Part shown: positions 6,167 through 13,398 of the stretch, piece after piece
Numbering within the stretch: the stretch's first letter is position 1
How the letters are laid out: every line of letters starts with the position of its first letter
From: an uncultured Opitutia bacterium
Lineage (GTDB): Bacteria; Verrucomicrobiota; Verrucomicrobiia; Opitutales; UBA953
NCBI GenBank assembly: GCA_903855995.1
Contig: CAIOAN010000001.1
Coordinates: 1-64,000 of the forward strand
Direction: 5' to 3'
Length of the DNA stretch: 64,000 nt
Notes under the pieces: generated by a model
Told to the model about the DNA's origin: nothing
Seen by the model: the letters and a program-made list of their open reading frames with translations, nothing else
The model's database searches: none
Translations under genes and position numbers: made by a program

Positions 6167-6339
6167 GGTCGTTGGCCGCAAGTTAGGACAGCCCCCCATA
6201 GGAGCAAGCGGGAAGGGGCAAAAACGCCGTTTTTATCGCTTCTAATCGAGGTCGGTAGACCGAGCGTGGGTCCGTCGGGGTTTTACCTGCTTTCCTTGCA
6301 ACTCTGCCCTCTGGGCTTTGTTCTATGGGCATACCCCTG

Positions 6340-8256
6340 ATGAAAAATCCGCTTACCCTGCTGGTCGTGCTGTCGGCTGCCTTCTTGGCCGCCGCCCAAC
6401 CCGCTGCCCGAGCTCCGAACGTGGTGGTGATCTTTATTGATGACATGGGATACGGGGACATCGAGCCTTACGGGGCCACCAAGCAGCGGACCCCCCACCT
6501 TGTGCGCATGGCGAAAGAGGGGATGAAGCTCACCAGTTTCTACGCGGCCCCGGTTTGCTCCGTCTCCCGCGCCCAGATGATGACCGGCTGCTACGGCGCC
6601 CGGGTTTCCGTGCCCGGCGTCTATTTCCCCGGTGAGCGCTTCGGGCTCAATCCCGCCGAGTTCACGGTCGCGGAACGCTTGAAGGAGCGCGGGTATGCCA
6701 CCCAGGCGGTCGGCAAGTGGCATCTCGGCGACCAGCCAGAGTTCCTGCCGACCCGGCAGGGCTTCGACCATTATCTCGGGATTCCGTATTCGAATGACAT
6801 GCTGAAGAAGTTCGCCGACACCCAGGTGCCCGTGGTGCCGTTGCTGCGCGATGAGAAGGTGGTCGAACTGATCGACAACGACGGGCAGAGCAAGCTAGTC
6901 GAGGTCTACACGAAGGAATCCACTGATTTCATTGATCGAAATAAGGATCACCCGTTCTACCTCTACCTGGCGCATAACGCCGTGCACACGCCCATCCACC
7001 CCGGCGCGGCCTTCGCCGGCAAGTCGCAGAATGGTCGGTTTGGCGACTGGGTCGAAGAGGTCGACTGGAGCGTCGGGCGGATTCTCGACAAGCTTGTCGA
7101 ACTGAAGTTAGACCAGAACACGTTGGTGATCTTCACGAGTGATAACGGTCCGTGGCTAATCAAGGGGAGCGATGGCGGCAGTGCCGGTCCGCTCCGCGGC
7201 GGCAAAGGTTCGACCTGGGAGGGAGGTGTGCGCGAACCAACGATTGCCTGGTGGCCGGGCCATGTGCCTGCCGGTTCCGTCAACGACGCTGTCGCTGGCA
7301 CAATTGATCTTTTGCCGACGTTCGTTTCCCTCGCCGGCGGTAACCTGCCCGGGACGCCGGTGATCGATGGCCGTGACATCACGTCGCTTCTGCTGGGCCA
7401 GTCCAAGGAGTCGGCGCGTGAAGCGCATTATTATTTTTCCGGCTACGATCTGCAGGCCGTCCGCCAAGGGCGCTGGAAGCTCGCGATCGCGCCCCAGCCG
7501 GAAGGTAGCAACGTCAAGAAGAGTCCCAAAGTAGCCGCCGGCCTGCGTCTTTACGACCTCGACGCCGAGATCGGCGAGCAGACCGACGTCGCTGCGCAGC
7601 ACCCCGAAGTCGTCGCGAAACTCAAGGCGTTGGCCGACAAGATGTCGGCCGAGATCGGCGGCAAGACGCCGACGGCCCGCCGACCGGCCGGGGAGGTGAA
7701 GAATCCGCAGACCCTTTATCCGATGGTTGATTACGCCCCGGGCGCCAAGGCGGCGGCCAAGAAGGGCAAAGCTGAAAACAAGAAAGACGCGGCCAAGTCC
7801 GTGCCGCTGAGGGAGCTCAAACTCGGCGACAATCTATCCTCCGCTTCCGCGCCGCAGGTCAACGGCAAGGCTTTCAACATTGAGTGCAAGGTCGAGACCG
7901 AGCAGCGCGATGCCGTGATTCTTGCCCAAGGCGGCCTGATGGGGTATGCGCTCCATGTCCGCGCAGGCCATGTGGTCTTCACGGTGCGGCAGAGCGCCGA
8001 CCGCGTCACGGAAATCTCCTCGCCCGCCGAAGTGAAAGGGAAGTTCGGGGTCAGCGTCGGGCTCGCGGCTGATGGTACGATGAGCTTGTTGGTCGCGGGA
8101 CAGGAAACCGTCACGGGCAAGACCCAAGGGCTGTTTACCCGTCAGCCGGCCGAGGATTTCTGCCTAGGCGGCGACAACGGCAAGCCCGTCGGAATCTACG
8201 CGCCGTTGACGCCGCTGCAGGGTGCGATTTCGGAACTCTCCTTCACGTCTCGTTGA
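6340..8256 (+). CDS. Secreted sulfatase with C-terminal jelly-roll-like domain
   Basis: This is a type I (formylglycine) sulfatase likely acting on a sulfated glycan outside the cytoplasm. From the ATG at 6340 a signal peptide (KNPLTLLVVLSAAFLAAAQ) is followed by the metal-binding pair in FIDDMGYGD and the active-site motif CSVSR. Its first Cys would become formylglycine, but Val replaces the usual Pro or Ala. GKWHLGD, HNAVHTPIHPG and TSDNGPW complete the family pattern. After residue 470 a Lys/Ala linker leads to a roughly 140-residue beta-rich tail resembling a LamG-type domain. An ATG at 6325 is an alternative start. The lyase gene follows after 6 bp, so the two are probably cotranscribed. 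Confidence 0.93.
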   Translation: MKNPLTLLVVLSAAFLAAAQPAARAPNVVVIFIDDMGYGDIEPYGATKQRTPHLVRMAKEGMKLTSFYAAPVCSVSRAQMMTGCYGARVSVPGVYFPGERFGLNPAEFTVAERLKERGYATQAVGKWHLGDQPEFLPTRQGFDHYLGIPYSNDMLKKFADTQVPVVPLLRDEKVVELIDNDGQSKLVEVYTKESTDFIDRNKDHPFYLYLAHNAVHTPIHPGAAFAGKSQNGRFGDWVEEVDWSVGRILDKLVELKLDQNTLVIFTSDNGPWLIKGSDGGSAGPLRGGKGSTWEGGVREPTIAWWPGHVPAGSVNDAVAGTIDLLPTFVSLAGGNLPGTPVIDGRDITSLLLGQSKESAREAHYYFSGYDLQAVRQGRWKLAIAPQPEGSNVKKSPKVAAGLRLYDLDAEIGEQTDVAAQHPEVVAKLKALADKMSAEIGGKTPTARRPAGEVKNPQTLYPMVDYAPGAKAAAKKGKAENKKDAAKSVPLRELKLGDNLSSASAPQVNGKAFNIECKVETEQRDAVILAQGGLMGYALHVRAGHVVFTVRQSADRVTEISSPAEVKGKFGVSVGLAADGTMSLLVAGQETVTGKTQGLFTRQPAEDFCLGGDNGKPVGIYAPLTPLQGAISELSFTSR

Positions 8257-8262
8257 AATATC

Positions 8263-9465
8263 ATGCGTGCTTACGCCCTCTTGCTATTGGCCTTTATCTC
8301 GCTGGCGGGTTTCGCCGCCGAGCCGGCCCGCCCTTACTTCGGCGCCCGCCCAGGTGCGTTGGAGAAAGCCAAAGCCCAGGTCTCGGCGGGGGATGAGGTC
8401 GCCAAGAAGGCCCTGAAGAAACTGATCACCGATGCGGATAAGGCTCTCGCAGCGGCCCCGCCCTCGGTGATGGACAAGGGCAAGGTCCCGCCGAGTGGCG
8501 ACAAGCATGACTACATGAGCATCGCACCTTATTACTGGCCTAATCCGGCGTCCAAGGACGGCCTCCCCTATCAGCGCAAGGACGGCAAGGTGAACCCCGA
8601 GTCGCGCGATGAAGCCGCCAATGATACGCTGCGCGCCCGCGAGGTCGGCACGATTGTCGAATCCCTCGCCTTGGGTTATTACTTCACCCGCGAAGAAAAA
8701 TATGCCGAACACGCGGCCAAGGTTCTGCGCACTTGGTTCCTTGATCCCGCGACCAAGATGAATCCCAATTTCCGCTTCGCCCAAGCCGTCCCCGGGGTGA
8801 ACGACGGCCGGGGTACGGGCATTCTCGAAGCCCGTGAACTCGCCCAGGCGGCCGACGCCGCGAGCTTGCTCGCCGGCTCAATACATTGGCCGGCGGCCGA
8901 CCAGAAGGCCCTCGATGAATGGGGCAACATCTACCTGGACTGGTTGCTCAAGAGCAAGAACGGCCAGGACGAGCATGCCGCCAAGAACAACCATGGCACT
9001 TGGTATGACGTGCAGTCCGCGCATTGGGCGCTGATCCTCGGACGCAAGGACAAGGCCCGTGAGATCTGTCTCGCCGCCGGACCTGGCCGCATCGGCGTCC
9101 AGATTCAGGCCGACGGCAAGCAGCCGCTCGAACTCGCGCGTACAACCTCGTTCGGCTATTCCTGCTTTAACTTGCGCGCGCTCGCGACGCTCGCTGGCCT
9201 GAGCGAGCACGCCGGCTTTGATCTCTGGCATTATAAGACTTCGGACGGCCGCTCGATCCGGACCGCGCTCGATTTTCTCGTCCCGTATCTCGGCAAGAAT
9301 CCCAAACCTTGGACCATGCAGCAGATCCACGAAAGCAAGCCCGAGGAGGTCCTGCCGGCCTTGCGCGCGGCCGGCATCGCCTATGGTGATGAACGTTACG
9401 AGAGCCTCCTGAAGGAATACGCCGACAGCCCGACTAAGCGCCTACAGCTCCTCGCCCCGCGCTGA
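8263..9465 (+). CDS. Alginate-lyase-family polysaccharide lyase, secreted
   Basis: The 400-residue protein has a signal peptide ending near GFAA and the (alpha/alpha) toroid pattern of the alginate_lyase Pfam family, which includes PL5-like and glucuronan-type lyases. Visible blocks are YMSIAPYYWPNP, NNHGTWYDVQSAHWAL (likely catalytic Asn and His) and ARTTSFGYSCFNLRAL (likely catalytic Arg and Tyr). It would cleave uronic-acid polysaccharide by beta-elimination. Pairing with a sulfatase suggests a sulfated uronic-acid glycan such as ulvan or a glucuronan. The substrate cannot be fixed from sequence alone. Confidence 0.87.
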   Translation: MRAYALLLLAFISLAGFAAEPARPYFGARPGALEKAKAQVSAGDEVAKKALKKLITDADKALAAAPPSVMDKGKVPPSGDKHDYMSIAPYYWPNPASKDGLPYQRKDGKVNPESRDEAANDTLRAREVGTIVESLALGYYFTREEKYAEHAAKVLRTWFLDPATKMNPNFRFAQAVPGVNDGRGTGILEARELAQAADAASLLAGSIHWPAADQKALDEWGNIYLDWLLKSKNGQDEHAAKNNHGTWYDVQSAHWALILGRKDKAREICLAAGPGRIGVQIQADGKQPLELARTTSFGYSCFNLRALATLAGLSEHAGFDLWHYKTSDGRSIRTALDFLVPYLGKNPKPWTMQQIHESKPEEVLPALRAAGIAYGDERYESLLKEYADSPTKRLQLLAPR

Positions 9466-9472
9466 AGAGCAC

Positions 9473-10585
9473 TCAGCCAGCCCAGCCGATCATCAGGGCG
9501 CCGCGATAGAACAGGTAGCCGAGGGTGATGGTGATGGGCAACGTGAGGACCCAGGCCCAGACGATGCGGCCCACGAGGCCCCATTTCACGGCGTCAAAAC
9601 GCTTGGTTGCGCCGACCCCGAGGATGGAGGTCGAGATGACGTGCGTCGTGGAGACGGGCATGCCGATGAGAGAGGCTCCGCCGATGGTGAGCGCGGCGGC
9701 GGTTTCGGCGGCGAAGCCGTGCACGGGCTGGAGTTTGACCATCTTATGGCCGAGCGTGCGGATGATGCGCCAACCACCGGCGGCGGTTCCGGCGGCCATG
9801 GTCGCGGCGCAGAGGGCGATGATCCAGAAGGGGACATGTCCGTCCTTGGCGGGCTGCATGAACTGCATCCAGGTGGGCGCACTGTCAAAGGCGTGGTTCG
9901 CGGCGCCAGCCGTCAGCGCGAGCATGATGATGCCGACCGTCTTCTGAGAGTCGTTCATGCCGTGGGAGAAGCCCATCATGCCGGCCGAGATCAACTGCAG
10001 CTTGCCAAACCATTTCTGGACCTTGCTGGGACGGAAGGATAGGCGGACGATAATCGCGGTCAGCAGGGCCATGAAGATCACGCCCAGCGTGAAGCCGATC
10101 AGCGGCGAAAGCACCATGGGCTTGATGAGCTTCGGCCAGAGGCCGGTCGCATGGGCGTGGTCCAGGGTGCCGTCCGCGAGCTTGGGGATTTCGTTCCACA
10201 TGAGACGACCCCAGTTCATGTGGGTCTGGCCGAGTACGCCGCCGCAGAGGCCGCCAATGAGTGCATGCGAGGAGCTGGAGGGGATGCCGAACCACCAGGT
10301 GATCAGATTCCAGACGATTCCGCCCATCAGTCCGCAGGCGATGGCCATCTGGGTCACGCCGGAGGGGTCGTGGACGAATCCTTTCGCGATGGTGGCGGCG
10401 ACCGCAGTGCCATAGAAGGCGCCGAGAAGATTGGTGCAGGCCGCCAGCATGATCGCTTGCCGGGGCGTCAGGACACGGGTCGAGACGACGGTGGCGATCG
10501 CGTTGGCCGCATCATGGAAACCGTTGATGTATTCAAACACCACGGCCACCAGGATGACCACCAACATCAGGACGAATGGATCCAT
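9473..10585 (-). CDS. pit: PiT-family inorganic phosphate transporter
   Basis: A 370-residue integral membrane protein of the PiT family, which takes up phosphate (as a metal-phosphate complex) with protons or sodium. The family signature GFHDAANAIATVVST is at residues 22-36 and its second half-repeat GFSHGMNDSQKTVGII lies in the C-terminal half, as expected from the internal duplication. About ten hydrophobic segments are visible. It follows the DUF47 gene by 21 bp on the minus strand, the usual arrangement for a Pit transporter and its partner. It ends 7 bp from the convergent lyase gene. Confidence 0.95.
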   Translation of the reverse strand: MDPFVLMLVVILVAVVFEYINGFHDAANAIATVVSTRVLTPRQAIMLAACTNLLGAFYGTAVAATIAKGFVHDPSGVTQMAIACGLMGGIVWNLITWWFGIPSSSSHALIGGLCGGVLGQTHMNWGRLMWNEIPKLADGTLDHAHATGLWPKLIKPMVLSPLIGFTLGVIFMALLTAIIVRLSFRPSKVQKWFGKLQLISAGMMGFSHGMNDSQKTVGIIMLALTAGAANHAFDSAPTWMQFMQPAKDGHVPFWIIALCAATMAAGTAAGGWRIIRTLGHKMVKLQPVHGFAAETAAALTIGGASLIGMPVSTTHVISTSILGVGATKRFDAVKWGLVGRIVWAWVLTLPITITLGYLFYRGALMIGWAG

Positions 10586-10606
10586 AGCCGGGGTCGGGGC
10601 GCGGGC

Positions 10607-11248
10607 TTAGGCGTACTTGAGGGCGATCTGGAACACGACCTTGCCGGCATCGCGGCAGTGGTCGATCGCGCGCTCGAGGAGTTCATAGATGTCCTTGAGC
10701 ACGACGACTTCCTTGGCGTCGACGTTACCCTGATAGAGGTCGCGCAGAAGGCCCACCATGAGGCGGTCGGCGTCGCCTTCGATCGTCTGCAGGGTCTCGT
10801 AGTCATCCTGAATCTCCTCGACGTTCGACAGTTTGCGCAGCTTGCGGACGAGGCTGGCGGTGACTTCGGTGGCCTGCTCGAGCATGCGCACCTGCTTGTC
10901 GACGATGTCGGTCGAGAACTGGGAAGGGCAGATGGCGAGGCGTTCGCCGATCTTTTCGCAGGTCTTCGGAATCTTATAAAGGGCGTTGGCGAGGGCTTCG
11001 ATGTCTTCGCGCTCGAGCGGGGTCACGAAGGTCTTGCAGAGTTCCTGGGTGATCGAGAGGCCGATGCGCTTGTCGACGCGGCGCGCGACGACCAGTTCGG
11101 TGAAGCGCTGCTCGAAGTCCGGCTTGCCGACCTGGGCGTAGAGTTTGGATAGCGACTTGGCGCTCTTCGCGGCTTCGTCGGCGCTGGCTTCCAGCAGTTC
11201 GTAGAACTTTTCATCCTTACCGAGAACCTTCTTCAGGAAGTCTTTCAT
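10607..11248 (-). CDS. DUF47 (PhoU-like) Pit accessory protein
   Basis: The 213-residue all-helical protein belongs to the DUF47/TIGR00153 family, relatives of PhoU that are encoded with PiT transporters and thought to modulate them. The opening MKDFLKKVLGKDEKFYELLEAS and the central CEKIGERLAICP block fit the family. It is the first gene of the two-gene unit with pit. Its 5' side faces the dyad-symmetric element at 11306-11363, so it is the likely target of phosphate-responsive control. Confidence 0.9.
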   Translation of the reverse strand: MKDFLKKVLGKDEKFYELLEASADEAAKSAKSLSKLYAQVGKPDFEQRFTELVVARRVDKRIGLSITQELCKTFVTPLEREDIEALANALYKIPKTCEKIGERLAICPSQFSTDIVDKQVRMLEQATEVTASLVRKLRKLSNVEEIQDDYETLQTIEGDADRLMVGLLRDLYQGNVDAKEVVVLKDIYELLERAIDHCRDAGKVVFQIALKYA

Positions 11249-11305
11249 GGGTGTATTGGGTGATACGCTTCAAGGTTCGCTTGGAAGGGGGTGCAAGCCC
11301 AGTTC

Positions 11306-11363
11306 GACACATATCTGTAACATCCGTAACATCAAACCGTTACAATTGTTACGATTATGTGTC
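11306..11363. promoter_or_regulatory. 58-bp dyad-symmetric operator between divergent phosphate genes
   Basis: The element is symmetric about 11334.5. Outer arms are GACACATA (11306-11313) and TATGTGTC (11356-11363). Inside are GTAAC at 11317 and 11326, mirrored by GTTAC at 11339 and 11348. Each half therefore carries two direct GTAAC boxes 9 bp apart, and the halves face each other. It lies 57 bp from the DUF47 start and 80 bp from the PlcP-like start. The tandem boxes resemble sites of OmpR/PhoB-type regulators, but the spacing differs from the 11-bp E. coli Pho box. The regulator is unknown. Confidence 0.7.
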
Positions 11364-11443
11364 TAATCGGCGCGCCGGCTTGTTGCACTCTGGGGGCTAA
11401 TCTGACGCGGGACTGTCACGCGGAGGTGTTAATTTCCTGCTCC

Positions 11444-12310
11444 ATGGAAGAAACCACCAAGGTACCTGGGCAGCACAAGATTCATTTTCGGACGTTGATC
11501 CTCTCGGATCTCCATCTGGGCACCAAGGACGCCCAGGCGCGCGAGCTCCTCGACGTTCTCCGCGGCATCCGTTGCGATAAGCTGATCCTCAATGGAGACA
11601 TCATCGACCTCTGGTCGCTGCAGCGGAAGAATCACTGGAGCCCGGCGCACACGGCCGTGGTCCGCCGCATCATGAAGATGGCGGAGAAGGATGGCACGAA
11701 GGTGATCTACCTGCGCGGCAATCACGATGACTTCATCCGCCGCCTGATTCCGCTGGTCCTCGATCGCATCGAGCTCGCGGAAGAACACATCCACGTCGCC
11801 CAGGATGGGCGCAAGTATCTCTGCATCCATGGCGACGCGTTCGACACCGTGACGGTGAAGATGCGCTGGCTCGCCGTCATCGGTGATATCAGCTACCAGA
11901 TTCTCCTCGATCTGAATCGTTTCTACAACAAGTGGCGCGCGTGGCGCGGGAAGGAATACTTCTCCCTCTCGCAGGCCATCAAGGCCAAGGTGAAATCGGC
12001 GGTAAGTTTCATCTCAAGTTTCGAAGAGCACCTGCAGACCTTGGCCGCGCGCCGCGGTTGCGAGGGCGTGATGTGCGGGCACATCCACAAGGCGGAGGAC
12101 CGCATGATCGGCAATGTGCGCTATATCAATTCAGGGGACTGGGTCGAATCGCTGACCGCCGTCGTGGAGGAGGACGACGGACGCATCCGCGTGGTCGAGC
12201 GCCCCGAGCTCCTGCAGCGTATCGCCGAACGCCGCGCGGCTTTCGAGGCTGCCAAGGTGGCTGCGGTTCCCGCCGGCGAAGCCAACGCTACGATCTCTTT
12301 CGTCGCCTGA
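11444..12310 (+). CDS. PlcP-like metallophosphoesterase (UDP-2,3-diacylglucosamine diphosphatase family)
   Basis: This calcineurin-type phosphoesterase of 288 residues has all metal ligands: SDLHLG (21-26), NGDIID (50-55), GNHDD (92-96), HGD (129-131) and GHIH (212-215). The segment YFSLSQAIKAKVKSAVSFIS and the ending YINSGDWVESLTAVVE closely resemble PlcP, the phospholipase C that strips head groups from phospholipids in phosphate-starved bacteria. PlcP proteins are often annotated as LpxH-like. I place the start at 11444 because the earlier ATG at 11357 lies inside the operator. The stop overlaps the next start (ATGA). A true LpxH-type role remains possible. Confidence 0.82.
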   Translation: MEETTKVPGQHKIHFRTLILSDLHLGTKDAQARELLDVLRGIRCDKLILNGDIIDLWSLQRKNHWSPAHTAVVRRIMKMAEKDGTKVIYLRGNHDDFIRRLIPLVLDRIELAEEHIHVAQDGRKYLCIHGDAFDTVTVKMRWLAVIGDISYQILLDLNRFYNKWRAWRGKEYFSLSQAIKAKVKSAVSFISSFEEHLQTLAARRGCEGVMCGHIHKAEDRMIGNVRYINSGDWVESLTAVVEEDDGRIRVVERPELLQRIAERRAAFEAAKVAAVPAGEANATISFVA

Positions 12311-13398
12311 TGAGTGTCATCCCCGTCCTTACGGCCGGTTTTGGGGAAGGGCATAACGCCGCCGCACGCTCGATTATCGAGGCGCTCGCCGGGCGGCCGG
12401 GCCTGACCGGCGAACTGCACGACCTCTTCCTCGAGGCCTACGGTGCCGAGAAGGCTAGGAGCCAGCGCGACGGTTATATCGGAATCGCGAATAAGTATCC
12501 GCGGTTGTGGGGTTGCATGTATACCGCGCTCGACCGACTCCCGCTCGTCCGCGCCTCGCTCCCGTTCGTGCGTCCGGTGGAGACGGCCCTGAATGCGATG
12601 TTGGACGAAAAACGGCCGCCGGTGATTGTATCAGCTTACCCGCTTTATAACTATATGATGGCTCGGCGCTGGCACCGCGATGATCCTGCGCGTCCGCGCC
12701 TCATCACGATCGTCACCGACTCAATCTCCGTGAACCGCGCCTGGCATCGGGCGCATTCCGATTGGTATGTCACTCCGAACCAGGCCACGGCCGACGTCAT
12801 GATCCGCCAGGGCGTGCCAGCCGCGAAAGTCCTGCCTTATGGCTTTCCGGTCTCCGCCAAGCTCAGCCCGCGCTCATCGGCTCGGTTCGGCGAACGCCCG
12901 CGCGTTTTGCTGATGCTCAATCCCGGCAAGCGTGATGCCGTCGAACTGGCGACCGCGCTTTCTACTTTGGGACTCGAACTCACGATCACCGTGGGCAAGG
13001 ACGCCTCGTTTAAGGAAGCGGTCGAGCGGGCGGTCGACGGTCGGGCCGAAGTACTCGGCTGGACGGACCGAATTCCGCAGCTGATGCTCACCAGCCATCT
13101 CGTTGTCAGCAAGGCCGGCGGTGCGACCACGCATGAATGCGTCGCGGCGGGCGTGCCGATGGTCATTACGCAGGTGATACCCGGCCAGGAAGCCGGCAAT
13201 GGCCGCCTCATCGCCGAGCATCATGCCGGCGCCTACGGCCTGACGGTCGCCAAGGCACGCGCCACCATCGCGGAAGCTTTCGCGGGTGATTGGGCGGTAT
13301 GGAAACAATGGAAAGCCTCGGTCGACGGACTGGGCGACGCCGGCGGTGCCGGTCGCGTGGCCGAACTGGTGGACAGGGAGCTGGCGGTCAGGAGGTAG
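12310..13398 (+). CDS. MGDG-synthase-type glycosyltransferase (GT28)
   Basis: The 362-residue protein has the MGDG_synth N-terminus GFGEGHNAAARS, which binds the diacylglycerol acceptor. Its C-terminal GT-B half contains SKAGGATTHECVAAGVPMV, the nucleotide-sugar site typical of GT28 enzymes such as MurG, UgtP and plant MGD1. It would add a hexose to diacylglycerol at the membrane face. The start overlaps the stop of the PlcP-like gene, so the two are translationally coupled: one would release diacylglycerol and the other glycosylate it. Sugar donor and number of sugars added are unknown. Confidence 0.87.
   Translation: MSVIPVLTAGFGEGHNAAARSIIEALAGRPGLTGELHDLFLEAYGAEKARSQRDGYIGIANKYPRLWGCMYTALDRLPLVRASLPFVRPVETALNAMLDEKRPPVIVSAYPLYNYMMARRWHRDDPARPRLITIVTDSISVNRAWHRAHSDWYVTPNQATADVMIRQGVPAAKVLPYGFPVSAKLSPRSSARFGERPRVLLMLNPGKRDAVELATALSTLGLELTITVGKDASFKEAVERAVDGRAEVLGWTDRIPQLMLTSHLVVSKAGGATTHECVAAGVPMVITQVIPGQEAGNGRLIAEHHAGAYGLTVAKARATIAEAFAGDWAVWKQWKASVDGLGDAGGAGRVAELVDRELAVRR

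Follow-up and report, generated by a model that had tools for sequence, protein, structure and literature searches.

A candidate phosphate-starvation membrane-remodelling unit in Verrucomicrobiota pairs a PlcP-type phosphoesterase with a GT28 glycosyltransferase opposite PiT-DUF47 genes

We analyzed a 64,000-nucleotide stretch of DNA from an uncultured Opitutia bacterium of the Verrucomicrobiota (assembly GCA_903855995.1, contig CAIOAN010000001.1, positions 1 to 64,000; hereafter the window), in which a first-pass annotation had proposed a lipid-remodelling module for phosphate starvation. On the minus strand lie the gene for a PiT-type inorganic phosphate transporter (9473-10585; Pfam PHO4, PF01384, E 2.3e-94), which is the one PF01384 match in the whole genome, and that for its DUF47/PhoU_div partner (10607-11248; PhoU_div, PF01865, E 6.5e-10), whose product is 96% identical to its counterpart in the related genome G098 (G-numbers denote genomes and L-numbers loci or regions of our comparison sets, in which several gene identities were read by eye). 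Diverging from them on the plus strand are the genes for a PlcP-type metallophosphoesterase (11444-12310; Metallophos, PF00149, E 8.1e-13), a putative phospholipase C giving diacylglycerol, and for a GT28 glycosyltransferase of the monogalactosyldiacylglycerol (MGDG) synthase/UgtP type (12310-13398; PF06925), a putative diacylglycerol glycosyltransferase. All four open reading frames were thus found where they had been placed, each with a Pfam match, but the ATGA overlap described for the last two needs correction: the junction is TGATG, with the stop TGA at 12308-12310 and the ATG at 12310, an overlap of 1 base. The same junction occurs in 12 of 13 loci from the genus and its close kin, the exception being G098, which has a short gap. 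The phosphoesterase frame has an additional in-frame ATG upstream at 11357, inside the palindromic site described below, and the start at 11444 is preferred.

The sequence of the phosphoesterase places it in the PlcP type. Its metal-ligand set (D22, H24, D52, N93, H94, H129, H213 and H215) is complete and conserved, and the calcineurin-type metal-binding motifs D-x-H, GD, GNH, H and GHxH were all found. It shares 47.8% identity with a protein encoded on a Pseudomonas aeruginosa plasmid (L095, CP075839.1), whose gene is directly followed by a glycosyltransferase annotated as family 1 and then by CyaB; we take cyaB to be PA3217 in P. aeruginosa. PA3219 is PlcP and the adjoining downstream PA3218 is Agt1, and PA3219 is 46-47% identical to the PlcP proteins of S. 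meliloti and MED193 (PMC8528852). From its neighbours, we infer that the plasmid gene corresponds to PA3219, the characterised PlcP. The plcP-type gene occurs on three P. aeruginosa plasmids, and the stretch in L095 looks chromosomal. In a tree of 40 rows, 34 PlcP-type rows were split 100/100 from 6 LpxH or LpxH-like rows; the P. aeruginosa plasmid protein, on the PlcP side, was the sole characterised-PlcP reference, the S. meliloti chromosomal, MED193 and HTCC7211 proteins having been left out, and the tree program flagged long branches for Piscirickettsia LpxH and a Pannonibacter row. The motif GDW[VL] was present in 34/34 PlcP-type rows and in 0/6 of the others, while GNHD was shared by 34/34 PlcP-type rows and 2 Bacteroidota LpxH-like rows, and GNRD occurred in 4/4 proteobacterial LpxH; the window phosphoesterase lacks GNRD and has GNHD. 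A blastp comparison with E. coli LpxH gave no match at 1e-3, and the NCBIfam LpxH models TIGR01854 and NF003743 touched the protein far under their cut-offs (27.7 of 190.35 and 38.8 of 134 bits, respectively). LpxI was found in the window genome and in 111 of 113 genomes of the class, whereas the LpxH model had 0 matches above cut-off and 26 below it in the 113 genomes; LpxI rather than LpxH serves lipid A in the window genome. Because of the presence of LpxI, the tree and the motifs, we rejected the identification of the phosphoesterase as LpxH, and the PlcP-like character assigned to it from the letters alone was borne out, as was its expected position outside LpxH in a phylogeny.

The second enzyme had been described as a glycosyltransferase of the GT28/UgtP kind, a family other than that of Agt, and this too is supported. 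Pfam gave MGDG_synth (E 1.3e-14, 55 bits against a cut-off of 25) and Glyco_tran_28_C (E 1.2e-6, 29 against 22) instead of the GT4 domains of Agt. A GT28 family profile matched plant MGD1 at 7.2e-47 and UgtP at 2.2e-44, with the next matches, to other glycosyltransferases (3.4e-5) and MurG (4.5e-5), far behind. The best PDB fold for the predicted structure (mean predicted local distance difference test, pLDDT, 90.8) was MGD1 (Foldseek 4wyi, E 6.4e-16, template modelling score 0.79 by target), although identity across the structural alignment was 18%. The window protein thus matches MGD1 of plants and UgtP/YpfP of Bacillus in fold, Pfam family, nucleotide-sugar stretches and the N-terminal GxGH, which corresponds to G12-x-G14-H15. 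The sequence therefore identifies an MGDG-synthase/UgtP-type GT28, for which diacylglycerol is the probable acceptor.

Between the DUF47 and plcP genes lies an inverted repeat of 28 nucleotides (11303-11330/11339-11366), 75% complementary, with one arm towards each operon, and each arm contains three TGTTAC/TGTGAC-like units at 9 and 11 bases. The arms are conserved in an alignment of the window, G098, L103 and L104, and a pattern built from the window arms and those of the three relatives, TGTTACN3TGTTACN5TGTGAC, fits the left arm (11306-11331, minus strand) with 1 mismatch and the right arm (11338-11363, plus strand) with 2. The window contains 2 matches to this pattern, where 100 shuffles gave 0, and at up to 3 mismatches it occurs in just these 2 places in the 2.66-Mb genome, compared to 1 for the reversed control pattern; a stricter pattern, TGTNACN5TGTNAC, had 0 matches in the same genome. 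The region upstream of pstS (contig 2) holds ACAATTGTTACAACCCCGTGTC, which is similar to the right arm, ACAATTGTTACGATTATGTGTC, and from the window arms and the pstS site we wrote a common core, TTGTTACN6GTGWC, which is present in the right arm. In 31 genomes of the genus this core had 35 matches in 25 genomes and none in the other 6, with 1 match for the reversed control. Thirty of the 35 were fetched, 2 of them from the window's own genome, which partly supplied the pattern, and the genomes, being related, are not independent: 19 lay at pstS (1 recognised solely by an adjacent SGNH gene where the contig ends), 9 at the DUF47/plcP locus (two being both arms of one genome, and two showing DUF47-PiT alone), 1 before a Porin_O_P gene and 1 inside a long open frame. 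In one genus genome (G140, L203:1501-2815), the core lies about 125 bp upstream of the phosphate-selective porin O/P gene, with the same motif letters in G136. Furthermore, in the regions of four relatives in the order, 5 core matches (at most 1 mismatch) lie close to the starts of porin or pst genes, while the reversed control has 0 matches; this was noticed post hoc. The palindrome is thus a real shared site, beyond what chance would give, with a core common to pstS and a phosphate-selective porin, and it offers a route to listing a phosphate regulon in the genus.

We examined 20 further regions of the genus that hold GT28. The PlcP gene lies directly upstream of GT28 in 19 of them, the twentieth stopping at a contig end inside the glycosyltransferase gene, and it does so in 13/13 loci of the genus and its close kin, a set that overlaps the 20 regions. 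In 12 of the 19, PlcP has a divergent DUF47 gene beside it (for L243 the DUF47 match covers only 38 residues, at 59%). In the 12 DUF47-bearing regions the better arm has 0-3 mismatches in every case, compared to 4-8 for the best match of the reversed control, and both arms are found at up to 4 mismatches in 11. L251, in which DUF47 is lost, retains a 39-residue PiT remnant, and its plcP-side arm has 1 mismatch. In L237-L240, PlcP-GT28 follows a sulfatase-like gene (by eye) without DUF47 or the palindrome, and has a different, well-conserved upstream stretch instead.

Across the 113 class genomes, a GT28 match (E<=0.001) was found in 92 and a phosphoesterase match (E<=1e-12) in 50. In the order, the PlcP gene stands with a GT4 gene plus varying sets of GT28 and a YegS-type diacylglycerol kinase (DAGK), in the arrangements GT4-GT28-DAGK-PlcP (L081, L082), GT4-PlcP-GT28 (L083), GT4-GT28-PlcP (L084), GT4-DAGK-PlcP (L076, L078-L080) and GT4-PlcP (L074), while L075 and L077 have PlcP without any of these partners. 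The kinase fits such clusters, since phosphate stress raises both PlcP and DagK in P. putida BIRD-1 (PMC5082522). The order's GT4, queried with the G064 protein at E<=1e-15, was found in 4/4 genomes outside the genus, G064 itself included, and in 0/4 genus genomes, that of the window among them; from its absence in these four, GT28 seems to be the surviving partner, having taken the place of GT4 in the window's genus. Among 80 loci from named genomes, a tested glycosyltransferase was present in 54, GT28 in 16 (all Verrucomicrobiota by title) and PiT-DUF47 in 2 (L103 and L104, close kin of the window), and in many Bacteroidota loci the gene after PlcP encodes a glycosyltransferase of another type (PF13528 for the Parabacteroides locus).

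In G015, PlcP stands at a phosphate island. After it come the genes for a porin, PstS and two Pst-type permeases, then those for PstB and PhoU, and further on a PhoB-type regulator, a PAS-HisKA kinase and PiT-DUF47; Pfam recognised all of these except PstB, which was read by eye. In G058, G064 and G093, a porin, PstS, permeases, a regulator, a kinase and PiT lie within about 20 kb (by eye), separated from PlcP by other genes, and PhoU and PstB were detected in G093 only. The window genome carries pstSCAB-phoU on another contig (PstS by Pfam, the rest by eye).

In Akkermansiaceae-type genomes, GT4 and PlcP are joined in one open frame of about 650 amino acids, as confirmed by Pfam for two. Such single-frame loci, of Akkermansiaceae/Verrucomicrobiaceae type (L035, L042-L045, L047-L050, L107, L109-L112, L114, L115 and L120), have no intervening stop in 9 of 30 class loci, a tenth having a degenerate glycosyltransferase half, and make up 8 of the 80 named loci, whose titles include Prosthecobacter, Rubritalea and Persicirhabdus. 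In G087 (family f5; L053:358-2304), the GT4 half looks strongly degenerate and the motifs of the PlcP half are intact. Because they are naturally fused, there is strong evidence that the two halves act on one pathway, and the fusion provides a single protein in which coupling of lipase and glycosyltransferase is testable.

Taken together, the exclusion of LpxH, the kind of GT28, the core shared with pstS and the linkage in relatives to pst, a PhoB/PhoR-type pair and PiT-DUF47 support the lipid-remodelling proposal, and we consider it very probable that PlcP and GT28 form a phosphate-starvation membrane-remodelling unit under a site shared with other phosphate genes. When phosphate is low, a regulator that responds to phosphate, most likely a response regulator of the PhoB type, would act at the palindrome between DUF47 and plcP. 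PlcP would then cleave the head group from phospholipids to give diacylglycerol and a phosphate-bearing head group, and GT28 would move a sugar from a UDP-sugar onto the diacylglycerol, yielding a phosphate-free glycolipid. PiT-DUF47 would be governed from the same palindrome, whether raised or lowered. A broader proposal, that Verrucomicrobiota couple PlcP to diacylglycerol glycosylation through several interchangeable arrangements, seems to us evenly balanced between being right and wrong. In Opitutaceae-type genomes this would be a GT4-GT28-DAGK-PlcP cluster next to pst genes and a PhoB/PhoR-type pair, and in Akkermansiaceae-type genomes a bifunctional GT4-PlcP polypeptide, whose lipase half might pass diacylglycerol directly to the glycosyltransferase half. 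For the window's genus it would be a pared-down unit that has GT28 in place of GT4, under a palindromic phosphate site with a core common to pst and a porin.

Several observations weigh against these interpretations. The closest solved fold to the phosphoesterase is LpxH, for a model with a pLDDT of only 78.4; the fold search turned up no PlcP structure and so does not separate PlcP from LpxH, and the structural comparison that had been suggested returned a nearest neighbour without deciding between the two. Within the genus, 7 of the 19 further regions lack DUF47 beside PlcP, six of these have, across the 400 bp upstream of PlcP, no arm with fewer than 7 mismatches, and four of the six sit behind a sulfatase-like gene (by eye). 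The enzyme pair is therefore better conserved than its association with PiT-DUF47 and the palindrome, and our case for phosphate control does not cover the six arm-less loci. The neighbourhood survey thus upheld the PlcP-GT28 pairing more fully than the four-gene arrangement, and the shared operator that had been predicted, although a conserved palindrome with a pstS-type core, is not a fixed feature of the genus. At the site itself, a search of the intergenic region allowing up to 3 mismatches found no canonical Pho box (CTGTCATN4CTGTCAT), a single Pho-box-like site with 4 mismatches lies at 11402, and the pstS core is oriented opposite to the arm nearest plcP. Further afield, none of the tested glycosyltransferases was found in the region read in G033 and G051 of the order, 5/5 regions of a distant phosphoesterase group had no GT4, GT28 or DAGK match, and 26 of the 80 named loci had none of the tested glycosyltransferases (14 from Pseudomonas/Pseudomonadaceae, 9 from Verrucomicrobiota and 3 from Bacteroidota). 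In G053 (genus g16), a GT28 homologue is unlinked and lies far from the GT4-PlcP fusion.

In one version of the remodelling unit, the two operons would be switched in opposite directions. OrfA of S. meliloti is presumably a DUF47 protein. Phosphate starvation is reported to repress the orfA-pit genes of S. meliloti (PMC3131613 citing Bardin et al.), which keeps opposite switching in play: in phosphate shortage the regulator would activate plcP-GT28 and repress the low-affinity PiT-DUF47, and by analogy the PiT arm may be repressed rather than induced in starvation. A single compact symmetric site between both operons would suit such a switch, but a near-symmetric site alone does not predict opposite effects, and we regard this version as a serious contender that falls somewhat short of an even chance. 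It is improbable, in our view, that the GT28 and the phosphoesterase instead make or trim some other glycolipid constitutively, such as a polyprenyl-linked sugar or an outer-membrane glycolipid, with the site serving PiT-DUF47 only. Acceptor and sugar cannot be read from the sequence, several genomes of the genus retain PlcP-GT28 without DUF47 and the site, and the plus-strand promoter-like hexamers that overlap the palindrome fit repression as well as activation. However, the glycosyltransferase profile leads to MGD1 and UgtP, both diacylglycerol enzymes, the palindrome presents an arm to each operon, the plcP-side arm persists in L251 where DUF47 and most of PiT are gone, and relatives add a diacylglycerol kinase. 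The remaining alternative, that the phosphoesterase is LpxH, the UDP-2,3-diacylglucosamine hydrolase of the lipid A pathway, in a neighbourhood unrelated to phosphate starvation, draws on the sub-threshold models, the fold and the public records in which relatives are named UDP-2,3-diacylglucosamine diphosphatase, and is highly unlikely given LpxI, the tree, the motifs and the linkage to the phosphate site and phosphate islands.

Some further gene arrangements were noted. In other families of the class, the GT28 homologue carries a fused PHP phosphoesterase-type domain at its C terminus (L008, L012 and L017, with L020 by eye), perhaps a parallel way of joining a phosphoesterase to a lipid glycosyltransferase; GT28-PlcP fusions in these families were rejected, the three frames checked by Pfam being GT28-PHP fusions. 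A 695-amino-acid frame in G058 was likewise rejected as a fusion, being an accidental open frame over separate GT28 and DAGK genes. In the window, open reading frames resembling a sulfatase and an alginate-lyase-type protein (by eye) occupy 6325-9465, beside the 3′ end of the PiT gene.

PlcP-glycosyltransferase remodelling is already known, and what is new here is the PiT-DUF47/PlcP-GT28 variant of the pathway. In the accessible parts of the open-licence literature we found no description of this four-gene unit, in agreement with the first-pass annotation, which knew of none in Verrucomicrobiota, nor of the phosphate island or the GT4-PlcP fusion. Sebastian et al. (PMC4796936) reported a PlcP homologue in the single-cell genome of a verrucomicrobium, thus from the same phylum as the window, and for that phylum the accessible text mentions neither a glycosyltransferase arrangement nor a fusion or phosphate island; PlcP was not found in verrucomicrobial methanotrophs (PMC9239053). 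The nearest precedent for the enzyme pair is in type Ia methanotrophs, where plcP lies beside a diacylglycerol glucosyltransferase of the B. subtilis YpfP type and was proposed to serve glycolipid synthesis (PMC9239053). That pair resembles ours in joining PlcP to a UgtP-type enzyme, but it is from Proteobacteria, and neither PiT-DUF47 nor a shared operator is mentioned in the text available. PlcP-Agt lipid remodelling has been described in P. aeruginosa, SAR11, Agrobacterium and Methylosinus (PMC8528852, PMC4796936, PMC8231724, PMC9239053), and a position of PlcP next to a lipid glycosyltransferase is common but not universal (PMC4796936). The window shares with these systems a PlcP-clade phosphoesterase directly followed by a lipid glycosyltransferase and a promoter site that is putatively phosphate-linked. 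It differs from them in having an MGD1/UgtP-like GT28 where they have the GT4 enzyme Agt, in the divergence of the pair from PiT-DUF47 over one palindrome, and in a site that is not a canonical Pho box. Phosphate-driven exchange of phospholipids for glycolipids, known mainly from Proteobacteria, would thereby extend to Verrucomicrobiota, with the glycosyltransferase partner swapped between unrelated families while PlcP stays.

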